Shown: positions 2,898 to 24,622 of the stretch, in pieces
Layout of the letters: the number at the start of each line of letters is the position of its first letter
Position numbering within the stretch: position 1 is the first letter of the stretch
Assembly: GCA_019310965.1 (NCBI GenBank)
Contig: JAFDDG010000042.1
Coordinates: 1 to 34,552, forward strand
Length of the DNA: 34,552 bases
Origin: Deltaproteobacteria bacterium
GTDB lineage: Bacteria > Myxococcota_A > UBA9160 > SMWR01
Direction: 5' to 3'
Position numbers and translations under genes: made by a program
Notes under the pieces: generated by a model
What the model saw: only the letters and a program-made list of their open reading frames with translations
What the model was told of the DNA's origin: nothing
Database searches by the model: none

Positions 2898-3686
2898 ATG
2901 TTGCGTTTCATGTCGTGTTTCCTGCTGGCGGCGGCCGCAGCGTGCGCCGGTTGCGTCACGTCTCCCACGGGTCGCGCCCAACTGCACCTGTTCCCGCAGG
3001 CGGAGATGGCGAAGATGGGGGTCGCCGCCTACGACGAGATGAAGTCGAAGCAGAAGGTCTCGACGGATGCGACGCTCCAGCGTCGCGCGCGCTGCGTCAC
3101 CGACGCGGTCGCAGCACAGGTGACGGGTCCCTACGCCGGGACGCGCTGGGAAGTGACCGTCTTCGAGGACCCGTCGCCGAATGCGTTCGCGCTGCCTGGT
3201 GGCAAGATTGGCGTGCACAGTGGGCTCTTCGCCGTGGCCCAGAACCAGGATCAGCTCGCCACCGTGCTCGGGCACGAGGTGGCCCACGTGCTGGCCGAGC
3301 ACGCCAACGAGCGCATCTCGACCCAGTACGCCACGCAGTCCGGGATCCAGATTCTCGACACGCTCAGCGGCGGCATGTCGCCGGGCAAGCAGCAGCTGCT
3401 CGGACTGCTCGGCGCCGGCGTCGTCGTGCTGCCGTTCAGCCGCGCGCAGGAGAGCGAGTCCGACACGATCGGGCTCGAGCTCATGGCGAGAGCCGGCTTC
3501 GATCCGACGCAGAGCGTGGCGCTCTGGCAGAACATGGCGGCGGCCGGCGGCGGGCAGCCGCCGGAGTTTCTCTCGACGCATCCGGCCCACGGGCGCCGGA
3601 TCGCGGACCTCCAGGCGGCATTGCCGAGCGCGAAGCAGCTCCGCGCGGAGGCGCGGGCGCGCGGTCTGCGCCCGCGCTGTTACTGA
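2898..3686 (+). CDS. M48 family metalloprotease, probable lipoprotein (LoiP/BepA-like)
   Basis: A 262-residue zinc metallopeptidase. The N-terminus is hydrophobic and ends in ACAGC, compatible with a lipoprotein signal with the lipidated cysteine at 16 or 19. The HEVAH zinc motif is at residues 126-130 and the third ligand is expected at Glu185 in ESESD, followed by the usual helix. STHPAHGRRI near the C-terminus is the conserved 'THP' segment of the M48 subgroup with LoiP and BepA, which act in outer-membrane protein quality control. The length fits the single-domain LoiP type, without BepA's TPR tail. A strong purine-rich ribosome site (GAGGGGGG) precedes ATG 2898. The 133 bases upstream are shared with the divergent FG-GAP gene. 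Confidence 0.9.
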   Translation: MLRFMSCFLLAAAAACAGCVTSPTGRAQLHLFPQAEMAKMGVAAYDEMKSKQKVSTDATLQRRARCVTDAVAAQVTGPYAGTRWEVTVFEDPSPNAFALPGGKIGVHSGLFAVAQNQDQLATVLGHEVAHVLAEHANERISTQYATQSGIQILDTLSGGMSPGKQQLLGLLGAGVVVLPFSRAQESESDTIGLELMARAGFDPTQSVALWQNMAAAGGGQPPEFLSTHPAHGRRIADLQAALPSAKQLRAEARARGLRPRCY

Positions 3687-3836: not shown

Positions 3837-5960
3837 GTGACGGGTCCGCCGCCTGCTGCCGGGGCCGCGCGCTGGCCCGCTGGCGTCGCGACGCTGGGCT
3901 GTGTATTGCTGACCCTGCTCGTGGTCTTCCTGGCAGCCGGGCCTCTCACCACCAACGATCTGTGGTGGCACCTGGCTCACGGGCGTGCGTTTCTCGAGCA
4001 CGGTCTGTGGAGCGATACGGATCCCTGCCTCGCAACGGCACGGGGAGGCCCGGTGCCGCACCAGTGGCTGTTCGCAGTCGCAGTGCGTGGCGTCGAAGTC
4101 GCGCTCGGCTTGCATGGCCTGCGAGTCGTGCATGCCCTGGCGGTGTTCGGCATCGCCGGGTTGGCCTTCGGCGTGCTGCGCCGCGAGGCCGGCCGCATAG
4201 CACCCGCCGCCTGCGCCACAGCGGTCTTCCTGGTGCTCGCCTGGTATCGCCTGATCCAGCTGCGGCCGGGGCTCTTCAGCATCGCCGCGGTTCTGCTGCT
4301 CGAGGCGCTGTTGTTTGCGCCCGCGCTGCCGTCGTGGCGCCGCGTCGCGTGCGCCGTGGGCCTGATGGCCGTCTGGGCGAACGTGCACTCGGCGTTCCTG
4401 GTGGGGCCGCTGCTGGTGACCGCGGCGCTGGCGGGCATCGTGCTGCACGGGCTGGCCGGGCGCTTTGCCGGGGGGGTGGATGAGGTGTTCGATCGCGCCC
4501 GCTTCCAGCGACTTGCCAGCGCGCTGGGTCTCGGTCTGTTGGCGGCGCTCCTGAACCCGCGGGGTCTGGATCAGCACCTCAGCTTCTGGACCTCGAGTCG
4601 TGAGGGCTCGATTTGGGGTGTGGTCGACGAGTGGGCGCCGTTCGCGCCCTTCGCTCACACGAATATCGCACCCGCGGTGAGCGACCTGGCGTGGGTCGTG
4701 ACGGACGCGTTGCTGCTCGGCGTCGTGGCGCTCGCCATCGTGCGCGGCGTGCGCTTCCTGCGGTTCCGGAGTCGCGAGTGCCTCGACGCCTGGGACCCCG
4801 TGCGGCTGTGCCTCGCACTGGCGGGTTGCGTGGCGTTCCTGATATCGATCCGTTTCTCGTGGCTCGCGGTCTTTGTGCTGCTCTACGCGGTCTCGCGTCC
4901 GTGCTCTCGTGGCGCCCGACCCTGGCGCGAGTGGGCAATGGCGCTCGTCAGCCTGCTGCTCGCCGTGACTTTTCCGATGTGGGGTGGCTTTCGCGAGGCG
5001 GCGGCGGTGTTTCCTCGGGAGCCGGCCGCGTGGCTGACGGATGCCTACACCGAGCGCCGTTTCTTCGCCCCCGGCGTGGATTTCCTGGCAGAAGCCGGCG
5101 TCACCGGCACGCTCTTCCATCCCTATGGGATGGGTGGCTTCCTGTGCCACCAGCTCGGCCCCGGCCTGCGGACCTTCGTCGACGGCAGCATGAACGTCGA
5201 CCCCGACGTGGCGACGGACTACCGACAGGTGACCGCGCACGCCGGCACGTTGCCCGGGGAAACGCCGGAAGACGTGCTTCGCCGGCGCGGCGTCGATGTC
5301 TTCTTCGGCATCGGCGTGCCGGCGGGCCCACTGCGGGCTGGCGATACCGAGGCCTACACGACGACCCTGCTCGAGGGGCATCCCGGTTGGATTCTGGTGT
5401 CGCGCTCTCTGCGCCACTCGATCTACGTGCGCGACGACGCTGCGAACCTCGCCAACCGGAGACGCATCGCTGCGTGGTATGCCGCGCAGCGCGTGCCGTT
5501 CGACTCGGCGTACGGCCTCGATCCGGGCGGCGCGATCGACGCCGCGCCCGAGTGGGCAGAGACATGGCAGCTGGTGCCGCGCGGTTGGCGCGAACAGCTC
5601 GCGACGAGTGTCGCGCGGGCGCCGGGAAGAAGGGCGGCTGCACTGGAGACCGTGGGGCTCGCCTATGCGCTGGTCGGCGCGTATCCCGAGCAGATTGCAA
5701 ACGATCGCAAGACGCTCGAGGTGAGGCCTCGGGCGAAGGAGCCGCGGCGCCGGCTCGTCTTCGGGCTGCTGCACGCCGGGCGCATTGCCGAGGCGCGCTT
5801 GCAGGGCCAGGCGCTCGTGGCCCTCGACCCGCTCGATCCGCGTTCTGCCGCCTTCGCACGGGGTGTCGAGCGCGTGGCGAGTGCGACGACGGTGTCCGAA
5901 AGCAACGTCGCCCTCGCTGCCTTGCCTCTGCTGTCGAGTCGCAACCCGCTGCGCCAGTAG
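3837..5960 (+). CDS. Large polytopic membrane protein, GT-C glycosyltransferase-like, with TPR-like tail
   Basis: A 707-residue protein starting at GTG 3837. About ten or more hydrophobic segments fill residues 18 to about 390. Directly after the first segment comes a loop with TTNDLWWHLAHGR, an acidic/aromatic first periplasmic loop as found in GT-C-fold lipid-linked glycosyltransferases and related uncharacterised proteins. The C-terminal third is soluble; residues about 610-690 look like degenerate TPR helices (ALVGAYPEQIAND, LLHAGRIAEARLQG). The donor and acceptor cannot be read from the sequence, and the GT-C assignment rests on topology plus this loop only. The start is uncertain because no strong ribosome site is visible. 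It precedes the AhpD-like selenoprotein gene by about 50 bases. Confidence 0.65.
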   Translation: MTGPPPAAGAARWPAGVATLGCVLLTLLVVFLAAGPLTTNDLWWHLAHGRAFLEHGLWSDTDPCLATARGGPVPHQWLFAVAVRGVEVALGLHGLRVVHALAVFGIAGLAFGVLRREAGRIAPAACATAVFLVLAWYRLIQLRPGLFSIAAVLLLEALLFAPALPSWRRVACAVGLMAVWANVHSAFLVGPLLVTAALAGIVLHGLAGRFAGGVDEVFDRARFQRLASALGLGLLAALLNPRGLDQHLSFWTSSREGSIWGVVDEWAPFAPFAHTNIAPAVSDLAWVVTDALLLGVVALAIVRGVRFLRFRSRECLDAWDPVRLCLALAGCVAFLISIRFSWLAVFVLLYAVSRPCSRGARPWREWAMALVSLLLAVTFPMWGGFREAAAVFPREPAAWLTDAYTERRFFAPGVDFLAEAGVTGTLFHPYGMGGFLCHQLGPGLRTFVDGSMNVDPDVATDYRQVTAHAGTLPGETPEDVLRRRGVDVFFGIGVPAGPLRAGDTEAYTTTLLEGHPGWILVSRSLRHSIYVRDDAANLANRRRIAAWYAAQRVPFDSAYGLDPGGAIDAAPEWAETWQLVPRGWREQLATSVARAPGRRAAALETVGLAYALVGAYPEQIANDRKTLEVRPRAKEPRRRLVFGLLHAGRIAEARLQGQALVALDPLDPRSAAFARGVERVASATTVSESNVALAALPLLSSRNPLRQ

Positions 5961-6012
5961 CTCACGACGGGGTATCCTGGGGTTGCGCGCATCAGCAGCC
6001 GGGGAGATGTCG

Positions 6013-7269
6013 ATGCAGAGCTTCGAATACGTCGATGCACCGGTGCCGATCGACGAGGGGATCGTCGCAGCGCATCGCGAGGTCTGGCGACGCATCGCCG
6101 CCGCGGGTGCATGGTGGACCGGCGCCGAGCGGGTGGCCATCGCGGTGGAGGTGCGTCGCGCCGAGACCTGCGTCCTGTGCCGTGAACGCAAGGTGGCGCT
6201 CTCGCCCGCCGCCGTCATGGGCGAGCACGAGCCGAATGATGTGCTTTCCGCGGCGGCCGTGGACGCCGTGCATCGGATCGTGACGGATGCGCGCCGCCTC
6301 TCGAAGAGCTGGGTCGAGAAGCTAGCCGCTGCAGGGATGTCGGACGCTCACTACGTCGAGCTTCTCGGTGTGGTGGTGGCGGCCTTCTCCGTCGATGAAT
6401 TTCACCGTGGTCTCGGGCTGCCTCCGGAGCGGCTGCCGGAGCCCGGCGGCGGTGTGCCGTCGCGCGAACGCCCCGCTGGCGTCGAGCCCGGCGTGGCCTG
6501 GGTGCCGATGCTGTCGTTTCGCGCGGCGAAGACCAGCGCACCGGATCTCTACGCCGGCATGCCGATGGCGCCGAATGTGATCGCTGCCATGAGTCTGGTC
6601 CCGGACGCTGTGCGAGACCTCAAGCGGCTCTCGAGCGTGCACTACGTCGCCGACGCCGAGGTGGCGAATCCGCTCGCGCGGGGAGAGAGACTCACGCGCG
6701 CGCAGATGGAACTGGTCGCGGCGCGGGTCTCTGCACTCAATGAGTGTTTCTACTGAACCAGCGCGCACGCCACGCTGCTCCGGGTGAGCGGCACGCTGGA
6801 CGGTGAGGAGATCGATCTGAGCGCCATCAACGCGGGGCCCGCGGCCGCGGCGAGTAGCGGGGTTCCGCAAGGCGAGTTGCTGGTGGGCTTTGCCGACGCG
6901 CTGCTCGCGCGGGACGGGAGCGAACTCGTGCGCTTGCGCGAAGCGATCGCGGCAGCGCTCGGGCCCGGCGGCTTGCGGGAGACGGCGAGCGTCGCCGCCA
7001 ATTTTCAACGCATGGTGCGAATCGCCGATGCCACCGGCATTCCCCAGCAGGTGCCGCTACTGATGCTCGGTGGCGATGTGATCGAGGAGCTCGACCTGCG
7101 GCGCTTTGCTTCCGCGGACAATACTCCCGCCGCCAGTGGCGTGCAGCGCCTGCTCGGCCGGTTGCTGCGTCCGCTGGCGCCGCGCCTGATGCAGCGCGCC
7201 GCAGCGTCGCTGGAGAAGCGGAAGATCGACAAGGCGAATCGAAGCCCGGGCGCCGGACTGGGAGCCTGA
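6013..7269 (+). CDS. AhpD-like peroxidase-related selenoprotein (in-frame TGA = Sec248)
   Basis: Read through TGA 6754-6756 this is one 418-residue protein. The residues around the TGA are NECFY-U-TSAH, matching the AhpD-fold motif E-C-x-x-C-x-x-x-H with selenocysteine in place of the second, peroxidatic cysteine (C245, U248, H252). The frame stays open without interruption to TGA 7267-7269. A first AhpD-like half contains CVLC at residues 53-56, so the protein seems to hold two AhpD-type domains. AhpD proteins are helical CxxC thiol peroxidases or disulfide reductases; the true electron donor is unknown. GGGGAG at 6001-6006 sits 6 bases before ATG 6013, which favours it over ATG 6007. Stopping at the TGA would truncate the protein just before the reactive residue, and GTG 6784 would be an unlikely separate start. 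No selABCD genes are in the window. Confidence 0.82.
6757..6799 (+). promoter_or_regulatory. Candidate bacterial SECIS hairpin immediately after the Sec TGA
   Basis: The RNA can form a 7-bp stem, GCTGCTC (6774-6780) with GAGCGGC (6786-6792, including one G-U pair), closed by the 5-base loop CGGGT. The loop begins 25 bases after the TGA, inside the distance known for SelB-dependent bacterial SECIS elements, and has the exposed Gs usual for them. An outer helix CCAGCG (6758-6763) with CGCTGG (6794-6799) could extend it. It lies within coding sequence, as is normal in bacteria. Pairing was read by eye and no folding energy was computed. Confidence 0.6.
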
Positions 7270-10209: not shown

Positions 10210-11336
10210 CACGTCCGCACTTCTCGGCTCGGCGCAGTCGCAAGCCGCGCGAGCGCCTGCGGTTCCGGAGTCACGCCGAGACCGCCGTCGGACGGTACGC
10301 ATAGCTCGCCGGCCGCGGGATCGGCGGTGTGGGCTAGGTCGTCGGCCAACAGCGCGCCGGTGGCGAGGCCCGCGGCGTATGCCGAGGCTGGGAGACTGGC
10401 AGCCACGTGCAGGGCCGCGCAGCGACCGATCGCGCCGTCGAGAAAGGTCGTCACCAGCACAGCGACGTCGGCCTCCCGGGCAGCGGCTGCGATGGCAGCG
10501 GTGGCGCCCGGGCCACCGATGGCGGCCGGCTTGAGCACCAGGACGTCGGCGGCGCCGGCGCGCAGCAGGCGGTGCGCGCCGGCGAGATCTCGAACGGCCT
10601 CGTCGGCGGCCAGCGGAAATGGCGCGAGCTCGCGCAGGCGGGCCATGGCATCCAGCGCATCGAAGGCCACGGGCTGCTCGAGTAGCTCGGGTTCGATCGC
10701 CGCCAGCGCGTCGATGTGTCGGGCGGCATCGCTTTCGCTCCACGCCCCATTCGCATCGAGACGCAGCGCCGCTCGGGGCGCCGCACGGCGTGCGGCCGCA
10801 ACGCGTTCCCGGTCGCGTTCGAAAGCCAGGCTTCCCACCTTCAGCTTCAGCGTGCGAAAGCCGGCCGCCAGGGCGCTCTGCGCCGCGCGCGCGACGTCGT
10901 CGGCCGTGTTGCCGGCGAGCAGCGTGCCGGTTTCGACGGCCGTGCGGGGTGTGCGGTCTCGTTCGGCTGCGAGATGCGCGGCCAACGTCGTGCCCGCTGC
11001 GCGCGCGCGGCAATCGCGCCAGGCCGTGTCGAGTGCGGCACGCGCGGCGGGGGCCGCCGCGAGGTCGCGCGCCGCCGCAGCCAGGGCCTCGTCCGGCTCG
11101 CCGATCTCGGCGCCCACGAGCCGGCGGCAGGCGGCAACCAGCGCGTTCGCAGCGGCGTCGGCGGATTCGAGGTCGAACCCCGGCAGCGGCAGCGCCTCCC
11201 CCCAGCCGCGCGCGCCATCCTGGGCCTCGATCTCGAGGAGAGCGCCCTCGCGTGCGAGCACCGGTCCGTGCGCCGTGGCGAGCGCTTCGTGAAGTGGGAG
11301 TCGCAGTGCAGTCACTCGTGCGGCTGTGAGCTTCAT
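10209..11336 (-). CDS. menC: o-succinylbenzoate synthase (MenC)
   Basis: A 375-residue enolase-superfamily protein that should dehydrate SHCHC to o-succinylbenzoate. The superfamily pattern is visible: TLKLKVGS (KxK, acid/base lysine), LRLDANGAW (first metal-binding Asp), LEQPV (Glu), AADEAV (Asp/Glu) and VLKPAAIGG (second catalytic lysine). Dipeptide epimerases and muconate cycloisomerases share these motifs, but the neighbours menA and menE make MenC by far the best call. ATG 11336 overlaps the menA stop by 4 bases (ATGA). The protein is very rich in alanine, in line with the high GC of the window. Confidence 0.9.
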   Translation of the reverse strand: MKLTAARVTALRLPLHEALATAHGPVLAREGALLEIEAQDGARGWGEALPLPGFDLESADAAANALVAACRRLVGAEIGEPDEALAAAARDLAAAPAARAALDTAWRDCRARAAGTTLAAHLAAERDRTPRTAVETGTLLAGNTADDVARAAQSALAAGFRTLKLKVGSLAFERDRERVAAARRAAPRAALRLDANGAWSESDAARHIDALAAIEPELLEQPVAFDALDAMARLRELAPFPLAADEAVRDLAGAHRLLRAGAADVLVLKPAAIGGPGATAAIAAAAREADVAVLVTTFLDGAIGRCAALHVAASLPASAYAAGLATGALLADDLAHTADPAAGELCVPSDGGLGVTPEPQALARLATAPSREVRT

Positions 11337-12232
11337 GCCGCCCAACCGAGCGCCAGGCTGAGCGCGAAGACGAGTTCGAGTCGAGCGCTCTCGGCGAGCA
11401 GTGGGTTGAGTGCGGCGCCTTCGCTCGTGCGCATGCGGTGCAGGAAGCGCAGCGCCAGTGGCGACGTGATCAGGGGCAGCAGCGCGCCGAGCGGGCCGAG
11501 CCCGGACCACCAGAGCAACACGCAGCCGGCGTAGGCGATGGCGATCAAGGCGGCGATTTCGGTGCGCACGGCGCTCTCACCCAGACGCACCGCCAGCGTG
11601 CGTTTGCCGGCGAGCGCATCGGTGGCTGCGTCGCGCAGGTTGTTCACGGCGAGCGGCACGCTGGCGAGTGCCCCGATCAGTGTGGAAACCGCCAGCACGT
11701 GGGGAGGCAGCGTCAGTGCCTGCACCCAGTAGGTGCCGCAGACGGCCACGAGACCGAAAAAGACGAAGACGGCAAGATCGCCGAGGCCGTGGTAGCCGAG
11801 GGGAAACGGGCCACCGGTATAGGCGAGACCGGTGGCTACCGAGAGGAGGCCGATGGCGACGATCGGCCAGCCGCCCACCCACACCAGATACAGCCCCGGC
11901 AGGAAGGCCGCGCCGAAGATCAGAAACGTCGCGCGGCGCATGGCCGCCGGGGTCACCCATCCGAGCTGGGTGGCGCGGGGCGGGCCCGTGCGGGCTGCGG
12001 TGTCGGCTCCCTTTTCGAAATCGAAGACGTCGTTCGCGAAGTTTGCGCCGATCTGGAGCAGCAGCGCGCCGAGAGCCGCCGCCAGCGCCGCGAGCCAGGC
12101 GTGTGCGTCGTCGGTCCAGGCGAGCGCCGTGCCCACCACCACCGGCGCCAGCGCGATGGGCAGGGTGCGCAGGCGCGCCGCCGAGAGCCAGACGGCAACT
12201 GCGCCCGGGGGCGCCGGGCTCGGTGCACTCAT
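11333..12232 (-). CDS. menA: 1,4-dihydroxy-2-naphthoate polyprenyltransferase (MenA)
   Basis: A 299-residue integral membrane UbiA-family prenyltransferase that attaches the isoprenoid side chain to DHNA, giving demethylmenaquinone. The first aspartate-rich motif is NFANDVFDFEKGAD and the second NNLRDAATDALAGKRTLA; both bind magnesium-diphosphate. About eight or nine hydrophobic helices follow the N-terminal 'RLRTLPIALAPVVVG', which is typical of MenA rather than UbiA or COX10. Start ATG 12232 overlaps the menH stop and the gene's own stop overlaps the menC start, both as ATGA. Length is normal for the family. Confidence 0.92.
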   Translation of the reverse strand: MSAPSPAPPGAVAVWLSAARLRTLPIALAPVVVGTALAWTDDAHAWLAALAAALGALLLQIGANFANDVFDFEKGADTAARTGPPRATQLGWVTPAAMRRATFLIFGAAFLPGLYLVWVGGWPIVAIGLLSVATGLAYTGGPFPLGYHGLGDLAVFVFFGLVAVCGTYWVQALTLPPHVLAVSTLIGALASVPLAVNNLRDAATDALAGKRTLAVRLGESAVRTEIAALIAIAYAGCVLLWWSGLGPLGALLPLITSPLALRFLHRMRTSEGAALNPLLAESARLELVFALSLALGWAA

Positions 12233-13062
12233 GCTGATGCACGCACGCGGACTGCGGCGTCGCACTCGGCGAGCCAGGCGTCGGCCAGCTCGAGGAAGGC
12301 GTGTGGTGCCTCCAAGTGGCAAGCGTGGCCGGCGTTCGCAACGGCCACGGCGCGCCCGCGCGGCAGCGCCGCCGCGAGCCCGTGCGCGATCTCGGCGAAC
12401 TTCGTGTCCTGCTCGCCATGCACCAGCGCCACCGGCGTCAGCAGCTGCGCGAGCAGTGGGTGGAGCGGCGGCTGCGCGCCGCTGCCCATGCCACGCAACG
12501 AGTTCGCCAGTCCGTGGGGGCGATTGCGCAGCCGCTGCGCGCGCGCGGCTGCCAGCGCCTCGGCGCCGAGGCGCCGCTGAGACTCGAACAGGGGAAGTGC
12601 CATCCACGCGTCGACGAAGCGTTCGAGGCCTTCGCTCTCGATGCGCTGGGCGAGGGCCTCGTCGTCGCGCACCCGGGCCTCGCGCGCCTTCGGGTCCGCG
12701 AGTCCCGCCGAGGCTCCCACGAGGAGTGCGGAGCGCACGCGCTCCGGCCGCCAGGCTGCCAGCGCCAATGCTGCGCGGCCGCCCATCGAGTAGCCGATCA
12801 CGTGCGCGCGCTCGATGGCACGCGCGTCGAGTGCGGCGGAAATCTGAGCCACGCAGCGTTCCATCGAGTAGGCCGCCGGCTCTCTTGGCGCCGCGCTCTC
12901 GCCGTGCCCCAGGAGATCGAGCCGCAGCACCCGGTGCCGGCCGCTCAGGCCGGCGGCGACCCCGGCCATGCTCTCGCTGCTGCCGGTGAAGCCGTGAAGC
13001 ACCAGCAGTGGCGAGCCGCGGCCTTCCTCGACTCCGTGGAGCGCCAGCTCCGGCGCGCTCAT
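12229..13062 (-). CDS. menH: 2-succinyl-6-hydroxy-2,4-cyclohexadiene-1-carboxylate synthase (MenH)
   Basis: A 277-residue alpha/beta hydrolase that should eliminate pyruvate from SEPHCHC, the MenD product. Visible features are LLVLHGFTGSSESM (oxyanion region), VIGYSMGGRAAL (nucleophile serine in GxSxG), LVHGEQDTKF (acid Asp) and NAGHACHLEAP (catalytic His). The 'HGFTGS' and 'GYSMGGR' variants are those of MenH and not of general esterases. It sits between menD and menA with ATGA overlaps on both sides (13062-13059 and 12232-12229), so translation is probably coupled. Confidence 0.9.
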   Translation of the reverse strand: MSAPELALHGVEEGRGSPLLVLHGFTGSSESMAGVAAGLSGRHRVLRLDLLGHGESAAPREPAAYSMERCVAQISAALDARAIERAHVIGYSMGGRAALALAAWRPERVRSALLVGASAGLADPKAREARVRDDEALAQRIESEGLERFVDAWMALPLFESQRRLGAEALAAARAQRLRNRPHGLANSLRGMGSGAQPPLHPLLAQLLTPVALVHGEQDTKFAEIAHGLAAALPRGRAVAVANAGHACHLEAPHAFLELADAWLAECDAAVRVRASA

Positions 13063-14852
13063 CGGGGTGCGGCTTCCGCGGCCACGGCTCCGGCGATGGC
13101 GGAGGCGATCTCGCGTCGGCGGGCGAGGGCGTGAGCCGGATCGATGGGAACCCGCAGCACGCTCACCCCGGCTTCGGCCAGGGCCTGCTTGAGCTCGGTG
13201 CGAAAGTGCTCCCAGGAGGTGATGTCGATCGCGCGCGCCGCGTACGCCCCTGCGATTGCGCAGATATCCGCGCCGTGACGCGTGCGGAAGTGCTTTTCGT
13301 AGCCCACGGCTTCGGCATGCGCCGCGACGGGCAACATCGAGAAGATCGCGCCGCCGTCGTCGTCGAGTACCACGATGGTGGCGGACAGCTCGTTGCGCCG
13401 CGCCGCGAGCAGTGCGCCCGCGTCGTGCAGAAAGGCGAGGTCTCCGGTCAGCAGCACGGTCGGGCGCGTGGCGTCGGCCGCCGCCGCGCCGAGTGCGCTC
13501 GAGAGCATGCCGTCGATGCCGTTCGCACCGCGATTGCACAGCACTCGCAGCGGCGGCGTGCCCGGCGGCAGGAACGCGTCGAGGTCTCGCACCGCCAAGC
13601 TGTTCGACACGTAGAGCGTGGCGCCGGCGGGCAGCTGCGCTCCGAGCTCCCGCACGACGCCGGGGCCGTGCAGCGTGGCATCGCTCGTCAGCTCGGCCTC
13701 CACGACGCCGAGGGCGCGGTGCTCCGCTGCGAGCGCCGCTTCGAGCCAGCGGCTGCTGCGCGGTGCGCCGAGGTGCACGCGCAGCGCGTCGCACAGCGCT
13801 CCAGGGGCGAAGGGGAGTACCTCGGAGGCGAGGTGGCTGGCGTCGTGCCAGACGCCAGCGGGATCGACGTGGAGCACGTGCTGCGGGCGGGTGCCTTCGA
13901 GCCAGAGGCGAAATGCCTTGCTGGTGGGTGTGGCGCCGAAGCGCAGCACGCAGTCGGCACGCAGGTTTTCGGCGAAGGCCTCGGCGCGCAGCAGCGCGTC
14001 GAATTGCGACACGAGCGGTGCGCACGCGGCCGCGGCGCCGCAGCGCAGCTGCGACGTGGCCTCGGCGAAGAGCGGCCAGCCGAGCGTGTGCGCCAGCTCG
14101 GCGATTGCACGGGCCTCGTCTTCGCGCACGTCGCTCGGCCCGCACACCACCACCCCGCGCTCGATGCCACGCAGCTGTTCCGCCAGGGCCCGCGCGACTT
14201 CGTTGCTCGGCGCCCGCGTCGTCTCGGCGACCCGGGTGTAGGCGCGGTCGCCGCGGCCGGCCCGCGCGAGCGCTCCCGCGTCCCCGAGGTCGCCGGCCAC
14301 CGGCGCCGGGGCCAGCGGCTCGCGGAAGGGCAGGTTCAGGTGGACGGGGCCGGGCGCCACACCGGCGGATACGGCCGCTGCCCGGCAGGCGAGTGCGCGG
14401 GCTTGGCGCAGCGCGGCGTCGCCGGGCTCGGGGACGGGCGCCTCGGCGAACCAACGCACCGCAGAGCCGTACAGCGCGTGCTGGTCGATGGTCTGGCCGG
14501 CGCCCCAATCGCGGAGCTCCGGCGGCCGGTCGGCCGTCAGCACGAGCAATGGCACGCCGGCGTGGTGTGCCTCGACGACCGCGGGATGGAAGTTGACCGC
14601 CGCCGTGCCCGAGGTGCAGACGAGGGCGACCGGCGCGCGGCTGGCCTTCGCCAGGCCGAGGGCGAAGAAGCCCGCGGAGCGCTCGTCGATGTGCGACCAG
14701 CAGCGCAGGCCGGGTTCGCGGTGCGCGGCCGCGGTGAGCGGCGTCGAGCGAGAGCCGGGGCAGATGCACGCGTGGGCGACGCCGCTGCGCACGAGCTCTG
14801 CGAAGAATGCTCGCGTGAAGGCGTGATTGCGATTCGGGGCGTCGCCCGGCAC
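13059..14852 (-). CDS. menD: SEPHCHC synthase (MenD)
   Basis: A 597-residue thiamine diphosphate enzyme that joins 2-oxoglutarate (after decarboxylation) to isochorismate, the first committed menaquinone step. CICPGSRSTPLT and HIDERSAGFFALG (Glu57 as ThDP-activating glutamate) mark the N-terminal domain. TSGTAAVNFHPAVVEA and LTADRPPELRDWGAGQTIDQ are hallmark MenD segments. The C-terminal cofactor region has NRGANGIDGMLSSALG, LTGDLAFLHD and DDDGGAIFSMLP. The start is GTG 14852, two bases after the menF stop, without a clear ribosome site, so reinitiation is likely. Length is slightly above the usual 550-580. Confidence 0.95.
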   Translation of the reverse strand: MPGDAPNRNHAFTRAFFAELVRSGVAHACICPGSRSTPLTAAAHREPGLRCWSHIDERSAGFFALGLAKASRAPVALVCTSGTAAVNFHPAVVEAHHAGVPLLVLTADRPPELRDWGAGQTIDQHALYGSAVRWFAEAPVPEPGDAALRQARALACRAAAVSAGVAPGPVHLNLPFREPLAPAPVAGDLGDAGALARAGRGDRAYTRVAETTRAPSNEVARALAEQLRGIERGVVVCGPSDVREDEARAIAELAHTLGWPLFAEATSQLRCGAAAACAPLVSQFDALLRAEAFAENLRADCVLRFGATPTSKAFRLWLEGTRPQHVLHVDPAGVWHDASHLASEVLPFAPGALCDALRVHLGAPRSSRWLEAALAAEHRALGVVEAELTSDATLHGPGVVRELGAQLPAGATLYVSNSLAVRDLDAFLPPGTPPLRVLCNRGANGIDGMLSSALGAAAADATRPTVLLTGDLAFLHDAGALLAARRNELSATIVVLDDDGGAIFSMLPVAAHAEAVGYEKHFRTRHGADICAIAGAYAARAIDITSWEHFRTELKQALAEAGVSVLRVPIDPAHALARRREIASAIAGAVAAEAAPR

Positions 14853-14854
14853 GG

Positions 14855-16237
14855 CTAGAGTTCGACCAGTGCGTGCAGCAGCGTGCGGAGCTTGAGGCGC
14901 GTCTCGCGCAGCTCCGCCTCGGGCTCGGAGCCGGCCACCAGGCCCGCGCCGGCCAGCAGGTGTGCCGTGTCTCCGCGCAGCAGCGCCGAGCGCAACGCGA
15001 CGCAGAGCTCGCCGCCGCCGCGCGCATCGACGTAGCCGACCAGGCCCGCGTACCAGCCGCGATCGCAGCGTTCGTGGGCGTCGAGCCAGGCGAGGGCCGC
15101 CGCGTACGGTGAGCCGCCCACGGCCGGCGTCGGATGCAGGCGCCCGGCCAGCTCGAGTAGCGTCGTCTCGTGGCGCAGCGTGCCGCAGAGCGGCGTCTCC
15201 AGGTGCTGCACGTTCTCCAGACGCAGCACCTGCGGTGCCTCCGGTGCGCTGAACTCATCGCAGCACTCCTCGAACGCTGCGCGCAGCGCGCGCACGACCA
15301 CGGCGTGCTCGCTCTGCTCCTTCTTGCTCTCCTGAAGTGCGCGGGCCAGCTCGGCATCCTCCTGCGGGTCGCGGCCGCGCGGCGCGGAGCCCGCCACGGC
15401 GGAGGTCTGTGCCGCTGTGCCGCAGACGCGCAGCAGCCGCTCCGGTGTGGCGCCAATGAATGTGGCGTCGCCGCGGCCAACGGCGAATACAGCACAGGCC
15501 GGATGGGCTTGGCGCAGGTTCTGGAGGCTGCGCACGACATCGAATCCGCCCGCTGTGTCGATGCGCACCGAGCGCGCCAGTACCAGCTTCTCGAGCTCGC
15601 CGGCTGCGATGTCGCGCAGCGCGCGCTCCGCCGCTTTGCAGAAGTCGGAGCCCGGCCGGTCGGCCGCCAGCTCGAAACGGGTTGCCTCGTGCGCCGCGTG
15701 GGCGCGGGTCGGACGGTCCCGCAGCAGCGTCTCCCAGTGCGCGAGGAGCGTCGCGCAGCGGGCCGCGACTTGCGCAGCCGATTCGCCGGGCTGCACCGAT
15801 GCGAAGGTTTGCACGCTGCGCTCCGCGTCGCATTCGAACCAGAGAAGCTCGGGCAAGACCAGGCGCGCGGCGGGATAGCCCTGCCAGGTAGTGCTGGGCC
15901 GAGGCTGTGCGGCGAACGCGAAGCCGCCCGTCAGCAGTGGGGCGTCGGGCCGCGCGCCGTGGACTCGCCGCAGCAACGCTCGCCGCCGCGCGTCCGCTCG
16001 TGCGAAGCGCTCCGGGCCGTCGGCCTCGATCGCCTCGCGACAGCCCAAGCCGAGCACGCGCAGACCTTCGTTCGGTCGTTCCAGGTAGAAGCGGTCCTCG
16101 ATCTGCAGTGCAGCAAATGCGAGCGGGTCGTCGATGCCGACCGCGACGTCGACGGCCACGAAGTGGGGCTCGCCATCCGCGGCGGCGCCGGCCAGGGCCG
16201 CGGCGATGCGCGCCTCGAGCTCGTCGGCCCGCCTCAT
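14855..16237 (-). CDS. menF: Isochorismate synthase (MenF)
   Basis: A 460-residue chorismate-binding enzyme that converts chorismate to isochorismate with magnesium. The conserved C-terminal half shows ELEKLVLARSVRI (base lysine region), FIGATPERLL, AGSAPRGRDPQED, QESKKEQSEHAVVV, LHPTPAVGGSP and GWYAGLVGYVDARGGGE. Anthranilate and salicylate synthases share parts of this, but the length and immediate downstream menD support MenF/EntC-type isochorismate synthase. ATG 16237 is preferred because it overlaps the menG stop as ATGA; a longer frame upstream lies inside menG and lacks family similarity. The N-terminal 130 residues are poorly conserved, which is normal for the family. Confidence 0.93.
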   Translation of the reverse strand: MRRADELEARIAAALAGAAADGEPHFVAVDVAVGIDDPLAFAALQIEDRFYLERPNEGLRVLGLGCREAIEADGPERFARADARRRALLRRVHGARPDAPLLTGGFAFAAQPRPSTTWQGYPAARLVLPELLWFECDAERSVQTFASVQPGESAAQVAARCATLLAHWETLLRDRPTRAHAAHEATRFELAADRPGSDFCKAAERALRDIAAGELEKLVLARSVRIDTAGGFDVVRSLQNLRQAHPACAVFAVGRGDATFIGATPERLLRVCGTAAQTSAVAGSAPRGRDPQEDAELARALQESKKEQSEHAVVVRALRAAFEECCDEFSAPEAPQVLRLENVQHLETPLCGTLRHETTLLELAGRLHPTPAVGGSPYAAALAWLDAHERCDRGWYAGLVGYVDARGGGELCVALRSALLRGDTAHLLAGAGLVAGSEPEAELRETRLKLRTLLHALVEL

Positions 16238-16935
16238 GCCGGCAGCTCGCCGGTCAGCAGCTGCGCCGAGCCGAACAGCATGCGCCGGTGCTGCACGTTG
16301 GCGAAGCCCGCCTTCGAGAGCGTTTCGCACAGCTCGGGAGCGGGAGGCAGGTAGACCGTCGATTGGGGCAGATACGCGTAGGCCTGGCGGTCCGACAGCA
16401 GACCGCCCACGAGGGGAACGACACGGTCGAAGTAGAATGAAAATCCGGCCCGCAGCAACGGCTGGGTGGGCCGATCCACGTCCAGCAGCGCCACCCGGCC
16501 GCCGGGCGCCAGCACCCGAGCCAGCTCCTCGAAGACCGGCGCGAGCGCCACGAAATTGCGCAGGGCGAAGCCGCACACCGCTGCGCTGACGGCTCCTCTG
16601 CGTAGGGGCAGTCGCGTTCCGTCGCCCTGCACGAAGACCGCCGGCACACCCCGTTTCTGCGCGCCGTGCAGCATCTCGCCGGCGAAGTCGAGTCCGATCA
16701 CCCGGGCCCCGCGGCGGGCGCAGAGCTCCGCCAGATCGCCGGTGCCGCAGGCGAGGTCGAGCACGATGTCGCCGTCACCGACGCCGATGGCGTCGATGCT
16801 GGCGCGCCGCCAGCGCTGGTCGAGGCCCGCCGTCATCAGCCGGTTCATGAGGTCGTAGCGCGGCGCGATGCGGTCGAACATCGCGCGCACCGACGCGTAC
16901 TTCTCGGCCTTCGAAGGGAGTGCGTCTAGCGCCAC
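16234..16935 (-). CDS. menG: Demethylmenaquinone methyltransferase (MenG/UbiE)
   Basis: A 233-residue class I SAM-dependent methyltransferase catalysing the last step, demethylmenaquinone to menaquinone. The N-terminus has FDRIAPRYDLMNRLMTAGLDQRWRR, a UbiE/MenG signature. SAM motif I is VLDLACGTGDLAEL, and VCGFALRNF and LARVLAPGGRVALLDVDRP follow. Length matches UbiE (about 230-250). GTG 16935 lies 10 bases inside the end of the merR-like gene, so the two overlap and are probably co-transcribed. In this operon the substrate is most likely demethylmenaquinone; a dual role with ubiquinone cannot be excluded. Confidence 0.93.
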   Translation of the reverse strand: MALDALPSKAEKYASVRAMFDRIAPRYDLMNRLMTAGLDQRWRRASIDAIGVGDGDIVLDLACGTGDLAELCARRGARVIGLDFAGEMLHGAQKRGVPAVFVQGDGTRLPLRRGAVSAAVCGFALRNFVALAPVFEELARVLAPGGRVALLDVDRPTQPLLRAGFSFYFDRVVPLVGGLLSDRQAYAYLPQSTVYLPPAPELCETLSKAGFANVQHRRMLFGSAQLLTGELPA

Positions 16936-18743: not shown

Positions 18744-19943
18744 GTGTTTCTCGATCTCTTCTACGGTTTGCGCAAAGAGGGTCTGCCCGTCTCCATTCAG
18801 GAGTGGCAGATGCTGATGACAGCGCTCGAGCAGGGGCTTCACGGCTCGAGCCTGCTGAGCTTCTACCACCTGGCGCGCGCGACACTGGTGAAGAGCGAGA
18901 CCTACTTCGATGCCTTCGACCGGGTCTTCGCGAGAGTCTTTCACGGTGTCGAGGGTGAGCTCAGCCTGACCGACGAGCTCGAGCAGTGGCTCAATGACCC
19001 GAAGCAGTTCGACGGCCTCAGCGACGAGCAGCGGGCGGCGCTGCAACAGCTCGACGCCGACGAGCTGATGCGGCAGTTCCTCGAACGGCTCGAGGAGCAG
19101 GATGGGCGCCATGACGGCGGCGGCAAGTGGGTCGGCACTGGCGGCCACTCGCCGTTCGGCCATGGCGGCGAGCACCCCACCGGCATCCGGGTGGGCGGCG
19201 AGAGCCGCGGGCGCTCGGCCATGAAGGTGGCCGAGGATCGTCGCTTTGCCGACTACCGCACGGATGCGACCCTCGACATTCGCCAGACGAAGGTGGCGCT
19301 CAAGCGCCTACGCCACTTGACGCACTCAGGGCCCTTCGACCTGCTCGACATCGATGAGAGCGTGGATGAGACCTGCCGGAACGGCGGTGACATCGAGGTG
19401 GTGTTCACCCAGGAGAAGCGCAACAACGTGCGCCTGCTGCTGTTGATGGACGTCGGCGGCACGATGGATCCCTACATGGCGCCGGTGAGCCGGCTTCTCA
19501 CCGCGCTCCACGAGGAGCGCGGACTGCGCGACTTCAAGGCCTACTACTTTCACAACTGCGTCTACGAGACCGTCGGCAAGAACGCAAGGCTCCACGGTTC
19601 GGAAGCGATTCCCACCGGTGACGTGCTGCGCACCCTCGACGAGCGGTGGAAGGTGCTCTTCGTGGGCGACGCCGCCATGCATCCGGCCGAGCTGATGAGC
19701 CCGGGCGGCAACATCAACCCGCGTTACGAGACGGAGACCCGCGGCATCGACTGGCTGCTGCGCATCCAGCAGCACTTCCAGCGCAGCGTCTGGCTGAACC
19801 CCGACCCGAAGCGGACCTGGGACAGCAGTCGCACCTGCCAGGTGATCCAGCAGCTCTTCCCGATGTTCCATCTCAGCGTGGATGGTATCGAGCAGGCCGT
19901 CGCGTCCCTGGTGGGTGCGCGTCCGCAACCGTCGCTGCACTAG
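18744..19943 (+). CDS. VWA domain-containing CoxE-like protein (MoxR partner)
   Basis: A 399-residue protein starting at GTG 18744. The N-terminal half (FLDLFYGLRKEGLPVSIQEW) is the typical start of CoxE-like VWA proteins. Residues about 125-160 form a glycine/histidine-rich linker (GGHSPFGHGGEHPTG). The von Willebrand A domain begins near residue 230 with LLLLMDVGGTMDPYM. The MIDAS is D236-x-G-x-T, so the first serine of the canonical DxSxS is glycine, which may alter metal binding. The C-terminus (WLNPDPKRTW, QLFPMFHLSVDGIEQAV) is conserved in MoxR-associated VWA proteins. It should work with the upstream ATPase in maturation of an unknown client. Confidence 0.88.
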   Translation: MFLDLFYGLRKEGLPVSIQEWQMLMTALEQGLHGSSLLSFYHLARATLVKSETYFDAFDRVFARVFHGVEGELSLTDELEQWLNDPKQFDGLSDEQRAALQQLDADELMRQFLERLEEQDGRHDGGGKWVGTGGHSPFGHGGEHPTGIRVGGESRGRSAMKVAEDRRFADYRTDATLDIRQTKVALKRLRHLTHSGPFDLLDIDESVDETCRNGGDIEVVFTQEKRNNVRLLLLMDVGGTMDPYMAPVSRLLTALHEERGLRDFKAYYFHNCVYETVGKNARLHGSEAIPTGDVLRTLDERWKVLFVGDAAMHPAELMSPGGNINPRYETETRGIDWLLRIQQHFQRSVWLNPDPKRTWDSSRTCQVIQQLFPMFHLSVDGIEQAVASLVGARPQPSLH

Positions 19944-19966
19944 GAGCCCGACCCAAGACTGGCGTG
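19943..19966 (+). repeat. 24-base intergenic repeat, copy 2
   Basis: Matches 7261-7284 at 22 of 24 positions, both differences being transitions. It begins at the last base of the VWA gene's stop codon and ends about 40 bases before the transposase remnant. It might be an insertion-associated sequence or a short interspersed repeat. Confidence 0.4.
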
Positions 19967-20004
19967 GGAAGCTCCAGGCGCCGAGGCGCGCCGCTGGCAA
20001 GGCG

Positions 20005-20289
20005 CGCGATCACGTGGGCGACGAGACCTTCTACGGATTGCTGGCTCGCCATGGTGCGGACTGGTTTCCCGATGGGGATTTCGTCGCCCTGTACCGCGAG
20101 GACTTCGGACGCCCGAGCGTGCCGCCTTCGCAGCTCGCGATCGCGCTGCTTCTGCAGGCGCACGACTCCGTGTCGGATGAGGAGGCGATCTCCCGCAGCG
20201 CTTACGACCTGCGGTGGAAGGTTGCGCTGGGCTTGGATCTGGACGAGAAGCTCTGCGCGAAGAGCACGTTGCAGCGCTTCCGGGCGCAG
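20005..20289 (+). pseudogene. IS1182-type transposase, N-terminal fragment
   Basis: About 95 codons similar to the N-terminal domain of IS1182-family transposases: RDHVGDETFYGLLARHGADW, then GRPSVPPSQLAIALLLQAHD, DEEAISRSAYDLRWKVALGLD, and KSTLQRFRAQ. The first twenty or so codons of the gene and everything after RFRAQ, including the whole DDE catalytic core, are missing. The frame runs into unrelated sequence at both ends, so it is a dead fragment. It shares 65 identical bases (20033-20097) with the second remnant at 24756-24820, in the same orientation. Confidence 0.8.
20033..20097 (+). repeat. 65-base direct repeat, copy 1 (transposase fragment)
   Basis: Identical over 65 bases to 24756-24820. 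Both encode GLLARHGADWFPDGDFVALYR of the transposase N-terminus. The copies are in direct orientation about 4.7 kb apart and flank the pilY1-like gene, so homologous recombination between them could delete it. Confidence 0.85.
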
Positions 20290-20373
20290 CGTCGCAAGGA
20301 GACACCCGATCGATCGCGACCGGGTTCGCGATTGGTCGATCCTAGAATCGGCCGATGCCAAGTACCAGACGTT

Positions 20374-20396
20374 CTTGGTTCGACGCGACAACCAAG
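20374..20396. repeat. 7-bp perfect inverted repeat (hairpin) between gene remnants
   Basis: CTTGGTT (20374-20380) and AACCAAG (20390-20396) are separated by 9 bases. It lies between the transposase fragment and a truncated small reading frame. It could be an operator or a stem-loop; neither side is followed by a run of T, so a terminator is unlikely. Confidence 0.45.
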
Positions 20397-20438
20397 GATG
20401 ACTGCGCCACCCGGCACGAAACGAGGAGTACCCACCCG

Positions 20439-20504
20439 ATGGACATCACCACCCTCGCCGCCTGGGGCGAGTTCATCGGCGGCATTGCGGCGGATCTACG
20501 ATGA
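20439..20504 (+). pseudogene. 5' remnant of a small membrane protein gene
   Basis: ATG 20439 opens a 21-codon frame reading MDITTLAAWGEFIGGIAADLR, with GAGGAG about 10 bases upstream. The first 17 residues look like the start of small single-pass bacterial proteins that continue with a hydrophobic 'VVxSLIYL' helix. Here the helix is cut off after GGIA and a stop follows. The gene seems to have lost its body in the same rearrangement that truncated the nearby transposase. The family likeness is from memory and is not proven. The rest of 20505-20601 holds nothing I recognise. Confidence 0.35.
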
Positions 20505-20601
20505 CGGCCTGGCGGATCCAGGAAACGTCGGTCCGAAGCAACCGGGCAGGTCACGGGTACCATCGGATTGCATGCCATGCACGGGGATTTTCCGCAGCCT
20601 G

Positions 20602-23600
20602 CTAGAAGCGCTGCCGCCAGTAGATCATCGAGGTCGACGGGGGGTCGCGCAGCGGCGGCTCGATCGTCAGCACCTCGCCCTCGGAGGTCTGCACCACGAG
20701 CACGTCGTCCGTCGGCACGTGCCCGATGCTGATGCGCGGGTTGCTCGGAATGCCAGCGCCGATCAGCATCCGCCGGTCGCTCGCTTCCGGCGTGGCGTTC
20801 GCATCGAAGAAGCCCTTGCCGTTGGACACCTCGAAGGCGTAGAAGAAGCTCTCGCCGGGCCCACAGCTGCCCGAGGTGTCGGGCTTGTAGCTGGCCACGA
20901 GCACGTGGCTCGCGAAGATCAGTGGGTCGGTGATGAACTTCTCGCTCTCCTCGCCCACGATGTAGTAACCGACGTTACCGGGGTCCGCGTACAAGCCCGT
21001 ACTGGTGACGTCGCTCAGGTTCGACTCCGTGGCGGTGGAGGCGAAGGCCGAAGACCCGGTCGGGTGAAGATCCCGCACGACGTAGAAGCGGTTGTTGTCG
21101 TCCTTGCTGGCGTCCCCGGCGTACTGCCGATCGCGGTCCTCGCCGGTACCGAAGGCCAGCATGAGCACGCCGTTGCTGTACGAGGCCGACGGCGGATTGT
21201 ACAGGCTCCGGTAGTGGTATTGGCCACCGCCCATGTCGGCGCGCGCGGCGTCGAAGAAGACCCCGGAGTTCCAGGTGTCGATCTTCGTGTCGGCATCGCT
21301 GTCCTCGCCCACCGTGCTGATGTCCCACTTCCAGAGCTGGCCGCCCAGGTCGCCGATGTAGACGACGTCGGCGAAGCGGTCCCCGTTGAGATCGAGCACC
21401 GCTGGCTCGCTCGGCAGCGAGTACTTCATGGCCGAGGGGCCGCTGGTGCCCGCCGCGTCGAACTCGACGCTCGCGAGTACCGCGCCCGTATCCAACGCGA
21501 TCATGTAGATCGCCTTGCTCTCGCCCTTCCAGGCGAGGCTCGTCGGGTCGCCGAGATAGTCGGGATCGTTCGGGTCGCCCGTGCGCTCGAAGCCGCCGCC
21601 GACGATCGCCACCCACTGCTCCCGGCAGTCCCCGTCGCCGTCATCGACGCCACAGTGGTCTCCGCTGGCGCCCACGCCCTTCACCTTCACGCGGCTGATC
21701 ACCGGCTTCGACCAGCTCTGCCCCATGTTGCTGGACGTGAACTCCCACAAGAGCTTCGGGTACGGCCCGTGGGGAGCGCTCATCGCGGTGGGGTCGGTGA
21801 TGTCGAGCGCCAGGTAGCCGCGGCCGCCCTCCCGGAAGGCGACCACCAGCACCGTGGCCCACTCGGAGGCGGACTTGGTGGTGTCCGTGCCACTGCCGTC
21901 TCCGAGCCAGGCGTCAGCCGCCGACATGTTGCCGTCGACGAAGCCCGGAACCAGCCGCGCGCCCGTGCTGTCGAGAACCTTGGGCGTGAGCTTGGCGATC
22001 GGCAGCACCAGGCCGGGCACGTAACCGAAGAGCTCCTCGCCGGTGCCCGCGTTGAAGGCCGAGGCGTCCGACGGGTTCCACCAGGCGCCCGCGTCGAAGG
22101 CGTGTAGCAGCGCGTCGTTGGCCCCGGCGTAGACGACGCGATCGCGCTGCTCGTAGGCGGTGTGGAAGTCCGCGTAGCCGTCCTCGTGCATCAGAATCGT
22201 CGTGGGAGTTCCGACGAACTGGATGTTCGAGTGGAAGATGTCGCCGAGCACGGCGCTGCGCATCTCGCCCTTGATACTGTCGCCGTCCTCGTCGAATGCG
22301 TCCTTGCCGTGGATGTAGGCCACGATCGCATCCCGCAGATTCGTGAGGTTCGTGACCCCCGAGGCCGGATGATTCGGATACGAGGAAACCTCGGCAGCGG
22401 TGACGTCCAGATCCACGTCCGTCACGTTGCTGGTGTCGAAGTCGACGCGCACGCCCCCAATCGTCGTGTAGACATCGCGCGAGCTGTCGCTGCGCAGCAG
22501 CAGGCCCGCGTCCCAGTAGGGTGTGCGCGTGCTCTCGAACTTGCTCGTCGAGGAGTCGATCGCGTCGACGTTCACCTTGTCCTTGAGCGTCCCGTCCGCA
22601 GTCATCCGGTAGGACTCGAGATGACCCTCGTAGCTCGAGGTGTCGAAGTACCCGAAGTAGAAGGGCGTGTTCCCGGTCGAGCGGCCCGATGGCGTCGCCG
22701 GCGTCTCGATGTTGATGCCCGTCGCCGAGGGGTCGGCACAGATCCCCGCCGGGGGCTCGGGGGGCTCGCAGTAGAAGGGGTTGCCGTAGAAGGTCGCCTC
22801 GCCGCTCAGGGAGAGCGTCTCACCCGCGTAGTAGGCGCCCCGGTTGGTCGCGTCGCCGCTCACGCTGATGCCCTTGTCCACGTTGACGAACGTGCCCCAG
22901 ACATCGGCGCTGCCGCTGAGGCTCACGTCGTCGCCACCGCCGACGAGGTTGAAGATCACGTGCTGTGGCATCACGCCGTCGAGCACGATCGCGCCGTCGC
23001 CACCGATCGAGATGCCCTTGCTGACGTTGACGATGAAGTAGTCGTCACCGCCGCCCTCGAGCGTGAGGGTACCGCTCCCCAGGCTGATCTCGTTGTTGAC
23101 CCGGATCACGTTCACGCAGCCGTTTCCCGTGATCGTGCGGCTGCTCGTGATGCTCGAGATGGTCTGCGTCGGAGCCAGCGCCGCTAACGCGACCGAGGCG
23201 GCCTTGACGTCGTCCACTGGGTCGCTCATGTCCATCTGCGTCACACCGCCGTGGACGGTGCCGCTGGAGATGTCGACGCTCGTGCCCGAGTGATGGCCGA
23301 TGAAGCCGTCGATGTCGGCGTCGCCACTGATCGAGACCTTGCCGTCGTTGCCTTGATCGTTGCCGAGGCCGATGTTGCCGTTGTCGGCCCAGGCCGAGCC
23401 GCTGATGTTGACGTCCTTGAAAATCGACATCGCGGGAAAGCCAAGGGCGGCCCCGAGGGTCGGGAGCGCGTTGCAGTCGCAGGCCGAACTCGCGACTGCT
23501 GCAGCGCAACCGAAGGGCTGGCCGTAATACTGAACGTCGCCCTGGAGCTCGAGACGGGTGAGCCCCGCAATGTACGCGCCGCGACCGCCCGAGTTGCCGT

Positions 23601-24315
23601 GGAGGTAGATCTCGCCGGCGACGTTCAGAAAGGTGCCATAGCCTCCCGAGTTCCCGCCGAGGTTGACGGCGGCTCCCGGCTTGGTGATGTTGAAGATGAC
23701 CTGGTTGGGCTCGAGACCGTCGAGCACGATGTCCGTGGTGCCGCGGGTCTCGATGAAGCCATCGACGTTGACGACGAAGTAGTCCTCGGGCCCGCCCTTG
23801 AACCTCAGGATGTCGTTGCCGCGAAGATCGATGTCGCCGTTGACCTGGATCACGTTGATGCAGCCGTTGCCGGTGACCGTGACCTGGTTGTCAATGCCGG
23901 AGAAGGTCTGCGTCGCCGACATCGCAGCGAACGTCGCCGAGGCGGCAATGGCATCGGCCACCGCGCCGGTCATGTCGACCGCGGTGACGCCGCCGGCCGC
24001 CTTGTGACCGTCGATCACGGTCGCGCCCGGGTGGTGCTCGATGTAGCCATCGATGGCGGCGGAGCCCTGGAGTTCGGCGGAGCCGCCGTCCCCGACACCG
24101 ATGTTGCCGTTCTCGGCGAAGGCCGACCCTTGCAGCAGCACCGCTACGCCATCGAGTCCGAATGCGGGGTACTCGGCCGCCCGGCCGAGCGTGGGCAGCA
24201 CCGAGCAATCGCAGGCGGCGCTGGCCTGCTGGGAGAAGACCTGGGAGAAGAGCAGGCCCGCGAGCAGGTAAAGGACCGTGAGGAAGGGCGTGCGGGCGAC
24301 GGGATGCTCGGGCAT
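20602..24315 (-). CDS. PilY1-like type IV pilus beta-propeller protein with two tandem N-terminal modules
   Basis: A 1237-residue exported protein (signal peptide ending QQASAA). Residues about 33-275 and 277-515 are two copies of one module, each opening with ACDC-x-x-LPTLG. Each continues with a GNIG stretch, VTGNGC or ITGNGC, a (D/E)DYF(V/I)VNV strand, a GTF-x-NV strand and a final YYGQPF or FYGNPF. These strand-rich modules resemble DUF3494/ice-binding-like or adhesin folds. From about residue 520 on it matches PilY1/Neisseria PilC C-terminal propellers: RVVYAGANDALLHAFDAG, ELFGYVPGL, GRGYLALDITDP, WVAIVGGGF, and the calcium loop DLNGDRFAD starting at Asp975. PilY1 proteins are tip adhesins and assembly factors of type IV pili. 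GGAG lies 8 bases before ATG 24315. No minor pilin genes adjoin it, and insertion-sequence remnants flank it on both sides. Confidence 0.85.
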   Translation of the reverse strand: MPEHPVARTPFLTVLYLLAGLLFSQVFSQQASAACDCSVLPTLGRAAEYPAFGLDGVAVLLQGSAFAENGNIGVGDGGSAELQGSAAIDGYIEHHPGATVIDGHKAAGGVTAVDMTGAVADAIAASATFAAMSATQTFSGIDNQVTVTGNGCINVIQVNGDIDLRGNDILRFKGGPEDYFVVNVDGFIETRGTTDIVLDGLEPNQVIFNITKPGAAVNLGGNSGGYGTFLNVAGEIYLHGNSGGRGAYIAGLTRLELQGDVQYYGQPFGCAAAVASSACDCNALPTLGAALGFPAMSIFKDVNISGSAWADNGNIGLGNDQGNDGKVSISGDADIDGFIGHHSGTSVDISSGTVHGGVTQMDMSDPVDDVKAASVALAALAPTQTISSITSSRTITGNGCVNVIRVNNEISLGSGTLTLEGGGDDYFIVNVSKGISIGGDGAIVLDGVMPQHVIFNLVGGGDDVSLSGSADVWGTFVNVDKGISVSGDATNRGAYYAGETLSLSGEATFYGNPFYCEPPEPPAGICADPSATGINIETPATPSGRSTGNTPFYFGYFDTSSYEGHLESYRMTADGTLKDKVNVDAIDSSTSKFESTRTPYWDAGLLLRSDSSRDVYTTIGGVRVDFDTSNVTDVDLDVTAAEVSSYPNHPASGVTNLTNLRDAIVAYIHGKDAFDEDGDSIKGEMRSAVLGDIFHSNIQFVGTPTTILMHEDGYADFHTAYEQRDRVVYAGANDALLHAFDAGAWWNPSDASAFNAGTGEELFGYVPGLVLPIAKLTPKVLDSTGARLVPGFVDGNMSAADAWLGDGSGTDTTKSASEWATVLVVAFREGGRGYLALDITDPTAMSAPHGPYPKLLWEFTSSNMGQSWSKPVISRVKVKGVGASGDHCGVDDGDGDCREQWVAIVGGGFERTGDPNDPDYLGDPTSLAWKGESKAIYMIALDTGAVLASVEFDAAGTSGPSAMKYSLPSEPAVLDLNGDRFADVVYIGDLGGQLWKWDISTVGEDSDADTKIDTWNSGVFFDAARADMGGGQYHYRSLYNPPSASYSNGVLMLAFGTGEDRDRQYAGDASKDDNNRFYVVRDLHPTGSSAFASTATESNLSDVTSTGLYADPGNVGYYIVGEESEKFITDPLIFASHVLVASYKPDTSGSCGPGESFFYAFEVSNGKGFFDANATPEASDRRMLIGAGIPSNPRISIGHVPTDDVLVVQTSEGEVLTIEPPLRDPPSTSMIYWRQRF

Positions 24316-24595: not shown

Positions 24596-24599
24596 CTAG

Positions 24600-24622
24600 A
24601 AGCCCGGCCGAGAAGTCCCCAT
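24600..24622 (+). repeat. Left terminal inverted repeat of the mini-IS
   Basis: Matches the reverse complement of 25340-25362 at 19 of 23 positions; the first 16 bases differ once. CTAG precedes it directly. Confidence 0.85.

Follow-up and report, generated by a model that had tools for sequence, protein, structure and literature searches.

The 34,552-nucleotide (nt) contig JAFDDG010000042.1 of assembly GCA_019310965.1, which belongs to a Deltaproteobacteria bacterium (Myxococcota_A, UBA9160 in GTDB) and is referred to at its full length as the window, carries on the forward strand a reading frame that runs from ATG 6013 to the stop TGA 7267-7269 and is broken only once, by TGA 6754-6756 at codon 248. 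A preliminary description of the sequence had taken this TGA, which lies in a continuous frame with the junction NECFY-U-TSAH and has 170 sense codons between it and the stop, for a selenocysteine (Sec) codon at the catalytic position of an AhpD-like protein. Our analysis assigns the gene to the family NF041238; its TGA probably encodes Sec in a 418-residue protein, which is predicted to have two AhpD-like halves and would reduce organic hydroperoxides. The gene comprises the following features:

6001..6006, + strand: GGGGAG, a probable ribosome-binding site that precedes ATG 6013 by 6 nt, inferred from the sequence
6013..7266, + strand: selenoprotein gene of family NF041238, 418 codons, Sec at 248, followed by the stop TGA 7267-7269; based on the NF041238 score, the frame and a database record
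6169..6180, + strand: N-terminal C-x-x-C (Cys53, Cys56), in 30 of 30 class loci and 78 of 79 GTDB loci
6709..6711, + strand: Glu233, at the place of the AhpD proton-relay glutamate, in 39 of 39 rows of alignment A3
6745..6747, + strand: Cys245, first residue of C-x-x-U and proposed resolving cysteine, in 39 of 39 rows of A3
6754..6756, + strand: TGA codon probably read as Sec, residue 248; based on the frame and on conservation in class and GTDB loci
6766..6768, + strand: His252, at the place of the AhpD relay histidine, in 39 of 39 rows of A3
6774..6792, + strand: hairpin resembling a selenocysteine insertion sequence (SECIS), stem 6774-6780 with 6786-6792, loop CGGGU 6781-6785; based on the fold and on codon constraint in relatives

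The database record of the truncated product (P0002) starts with the Met of ATG 6013, and a further in-frame ATG lies at 6007. The joined protein matches NF041238 of NCBIfam (title "alkylhydroperoxidase-related (seleno)protein", name AhpD_rel_CFYUT) with 444.1 bits at a cut-off of 175 over the entire model (1-357 of 357), and the family motif C-F-Y-U-T is present as CFY-TGA-T. Among the Pfam families CMD alone is matched, in the C-terminal half with 26.9 bits (cut-off 23), and TIGR01926 scores 33.7 bits, which is under its cut-off of 81.8.

The open frame beyond the TGA is weak evidence alone, because the window is G+C-rich and its six frames list 138 open reading frames (ORFs) of at least 90 amino acids, many of them overlapping and on both strands; the case therefore rests on conservation in relatives. 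In the same class, 57 of 90 genomes match NF041238 over the cut-off at 92 places, each of which contains one TGA, and all 30 of these that were read base by base, besides the window, have C-F-Y-TGA-T-x-x-H (20 of them form alignment A1). A scan of GTDB genomes gave 259 stretches confirmed as relatives, of which 79 distinct loci were kept, and every one of them has TGA at the Sec codon (C-F-[YF]-*-T-x-x-H); both sets overlap, contigs of 853,772 and 84,454 bases for instance occurring in each, and are hence not independent. Since one of the two GTDB search patterns carries Cys at the Sec place, the scan should if anything favour Cys forms. By record title, the GTDB loci come from Myxococcota, Deltaproteobacteria, Gammaproteobacteria, Rubrivivax, Candidatus Binatia and metagenome-assembled genomes of Thermoanaerobaculia. 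Alignment A3 holds 36 of 41 loci tried out of the 79, five with a second stop in the matched range being left out. The N-terminal C-x-x-C is absent in locus L112, where the upstream frame is open for 198 codons only. In some genomes (at L128, L078, L094, L133; G083 contig 12, G046 contig 80, G045 contig 267) two or three copies of the family gene lie near one another, in convergent or tandem orientation, and each copy has the TGA. On G068 contig 62 (273338-273906, - strand) there are NF041238 fragments under the cut-off with an internal TAG, perhaps a decayed copy.

Two protein searches gave 664 and 1012 matches, and the best 120 of each comprise 238 distinct proteins, including the window's truncated record. 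Among these, 235 end at CFY or CFF and one (P0004) at SFY, so that 236 of 238 records stop at the Sec codon and lack half of the active site. P0004, a close database relative of the window protein (76-79%), ends with NESFY; Ser here replaces the conserved Cys that opens CxxU, which could be due to a sequencing error. The remaining two, P0017 and P0026, are full-length and align across the TGA with Cys at the place of residue 248, which supports the Sec reading. In a tree of 99 rows (L103, L117, L133 and L112 left out), for which only residues before the Sec place were used, both Cys forms belong to a clade of 15 rows (100/98) in which all remaining rows stop at CFY; the TGA of these rows is deduced from the motif at the end of protein records. 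P0026 pairs with the CFY-ending P0122 (99/86), and the tree requires two changes. As the Cys forms nest in a clade of CFY-ending rows, the sequences point to loss of Sec rather than gain.

The genome, which is 90% complete, also contains the genes for Sec synthesis and insertion that the preliminary description had proposed to look for: SelA (515.3 bits, cut-off 268), SelB (276.5, cut-off 242), SelD (256.2, cut-off 125) and a tRNA-Sec with anticodon tca (70.5, cut-off 47). SelB is over the cut-off in 48 of the 57 NF041238-bearing class genomes, and tRNA-Sec in 10 of 15 named genomes with the family. SelD of the genome (L017, 1393-3615, - strand) forms the C-terminal end of a frame of 740 codons that carries a Pyr_redox_2 domain on its N-terminal side, a fusion of the Ndh-SelD type described in PMC2398784. 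The same genome has a second AhpD-like CxxU frame on G000 contig 152 (L050, 3044-3622, - strand), which reads DCFY-TGA-TQSH with the TGA at 3389-3391, scores 94.9 bits with TIGR01926 and has a hairpin past the TGA.

Furthermore, the RNA following the TGA contains a conserved hairpin, as is typical for bacterial selenoprotein genes, together with codon constraint. Of 80 rows (the window and 79 loci, L133 being entered by its second family copy), L103 repeats L102, leaving 79 for loop and codon counts, and L117 has an N, leaving 78 for the pairing, shuffle, RNAalifold and codon-redraw tests; the sequences are kin and the counts therefore not independent trials. In 78 distinct sequences four standard pairs closing a 5-nt loop are found 21-33 nt past the TGA, where 11.3 such sequences are expected when codons are redrawn from the synonymous codons of the same gene. 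The loop is CGUGC in 33, CGUGU in 21, CGGGC in 11 and CGGGU in 6 of 79 sequences. Within the hairpin CTC is used in 77 of 79 cases (background 31%), CGT or CGG in 75 of 75 CGN codons (37%) and AGC in 74 of 79 (29% of Ser). For the 7-pair stem of the window, 84.8% of the cells pair, compared with 80.5% in shuffles and at most 49.3% in slid controls, and 17 cells are changed on both sides versus 8.4. The conserved hairpin is the minimum-energy fold only if the first 9 nt past the TGA are omitted; a ribosome decoding the TGA would cover these 9 nt. The 68 nt from 6748 have a z of -2.51, with 2 of 200 shuffles as low, in an alternative fold, the one that the isolated window RNA favours. For finding further members, GCUC-CGKGY-GAGC or a near form 21-33 nt past the TGA can serve as a strict signature.

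Could the TGA be an ordinary stop or a nonsense mutation, leaving a 247-residue protein followed by a separate or dead ORF? TGA ends 8 of the 16 listed window genes including the selenoprotein gene itself, nearly all of the listed database proteins end there, and the ORF from GTG 6784 could be annotated by itself. However, the frame past the TGA is conserved as protein over the whole NF041238 model with residues such as His252 in every A3 row, full-length Cys forms exist, and a mutation would not strike the same codon again and again in all 79 loci; we therefore give this explanation very little credence. A genome-wide reading of TGA as Trp or another residue would likewise keep the frame open, but the selenoprotein gene and seven other listed window genes end in TGA, full-length relatives have Cys instead of Trp, and the genome encodes tRNA-Sec, SelA, SelB and SelD, so that such a reassignment is practically negligible. 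An AhpD-fold selenoprotein with another reaction, either reductive dehalogenation like that of the debrominase Bmp8 or thiol-disulfide exchange, is unlikely, if far from negligible.

Several observations weigh against a Sec-dependent peroxidase. Covariation in the hairpin is modest, with both sides changed in 3 of 7 pairs, where shuffles give 2.0 and 22 of 500 attain the observed number, and a small RNAalifold covariation term of -0.15. The two outermost pairs are missing from 35 and 39 of the 78 sequences. By itself, the window RNA favours an alternative fold that is longer (6757-6801, -25.5 kcal/mol). In nine of the 57 class genomes no SelB match exceeds the cut-off; SelA is present in eight of the nine. 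For tRNA-Sec, five of the 15 named genomes lack a match above the cut-off, of which two have SelB and three showed neither; we tentatively put these gaps down to incomplete draft genomes. Moreover, the Foldseek search by itself yielded no structure with an E below 0.001, and no conserved gene neighbour supports a peroxidase role.

The original assignment as an AhpD-like protein stands for the C-terminal half, which has the AhpD-type site; as a whole, the protein would not be a plain AhpD, since the structure model predicts a single chain with two AhpD-like halves. The C-terminal half shows the complete AhpD site Glu-x11-Cys-x2-Cys-x3-His with Sec for the second Cys, the spacing of Glu233 matching Glu74-Cys86 in YP_296737.1, and in the model it retains helix 229-242, CxxU and helix 246-262. 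The N-terminal half is without that site and has Val, Ile or Leu at the place of Glu and Lys, Arg or Gln at the place of His. For the chemistry, the substrate and the role of the N-terminal half we infer the following course. Sec248 presumably takes the place of the peroxidatic, not the resolving, cysteine, by analogy with AhpD of M. tuberculosis. Glu233 and His252 would activate the Sec248 selenolate for attack on the peroxide, and the resulting selenenic acid would be resolved by Cys245 to a Cys-Sec selenylsulfide, which an outside thiol system may reduce. The CxxC of the N-terminal half, lacking a proton relay, may be an electron-relay or structural site. For Sec to be inserted, SelB and tRNA-Sec would have to act at the hairpin 6774-6792; in the absence of selenium, translation would end after 247 residues.

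Elsewhere in the window, a 707-codon frame without Pfam or NCBIfam match (3837-5960, + strand) ends 52 nt before the selenoprotein start. A menaquinone-type cluster (11333-16576, - strand) encodes a UbiA prenyltransferase, an alpha/beta hydrolase, MenD (13059-14852, 478.6 bits) and a chorismate-binding enzyme. Two IS1182-like transposase remnants (19882-22107 and 24662-25366, + strand; model 11-114 and 348-487) share a 98-nt direct repeat (20004 and 24727, 93%), with terminal-repeat-like arms at 24596-24622 and 25340-25366; between them lies a 1357-codon frame (20602-24675, - strand) that matches a PilY1 beta-propeller and contains internal repeats spaced by about 744 nt. A fatty acid cis/trans isomerase (792 bits) is encoded at 29384-31780 (- strand).

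NF041238 is already catalogued, and the window gene adds one member to a published selenoprotein family. In 2005, PMC1088965 described four sequences of a CXXU protein, hypothetical protein 1, in the Sargasso Sea selenoproteome; this protein is equated with NF041238 in PMC13188914, where other AhpD-like CxxU families are listed too. AhpD-like 1 and 2 appear in the list of PMC2398784. The earlier remark that CxxU selenoproteins of the AhpD fold had been reported thus holds. With NF041238 the window protein shares the full-length match (444 bits), the CxxU motif and the Sec place, and nothing sets it apart except that it is longer at the C-terminal end by one helix (376-410 in the model). With AhpD-type alkylhydroperoxidases (6k40 of D. 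radiodurans; 2prr, YP_296737.1) its C-terminal half has Glu-x11-Cys-x-Tyr-(Cys/Sec)-x3-His and the predicted fold in common, whereas it has Sec for the second Cys and a second AhpD-like half fused in front. TIGR01926 AhpD-like and CMD-like CxxU selenoproteins, which are on record as bacterial selenoproteins, also have CxxU in an AhpD core, but these are single-domain and the window protein is predicted to be double.

Bacterial fused AhpD dimers of sestrin shape are described in PMC11429811; in two of these, the C-terminal half contains both cysteines and the N-terminal half none. In contrast to these two (PMC4674687, PMC11429811), the window protein has CxxC in its N-terminal half and Sec in its C-terminal half. 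Up to E 10, the Pfam matches of 39 members include no sestrin family, and the PDB sequence matches include no sestrin. The stem "selen" occurs in the text of PMC11429811 once only, for selenomethionine, and a literature search that left out most subscription papers gave no paper linking NF041238 or any selenoprotein to the sestrin fold. As modelled, the window protein would have two AhpD-like halves in one chain in the same arrangement as sestrin 2. In sestrin 2, according to PMC11429811, the active site is in the N-terminal half and an acidic hinge (DDYDY) replaces the C-half helix-turn-helix, whereas the C-terminal half of the window protein keeps its helices and a complete site. We tentatively consider, as a possible if rather doubtful reading, a bacterial sestrin-shaped selenoenzyme: a fused AhpD pair with a peroxidatic selenol site in the C-terminal half and an N-terminal dithiol that would pass electrons to the selenol site or sense its state, in which selenium is near-obligatory and the Cys forms look like late losses. 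If true, it would mirror sestrin, which keeps its chemistry in the N-terminal half, and show a fused AhpD pair before one half loses its cysteines. The selenoprotein itself is to be expected once NF041238 is known; what merits further attention is the predicted sestrin-like double fold, as a bacterial test case for the division of work in fused AhpD pairs.
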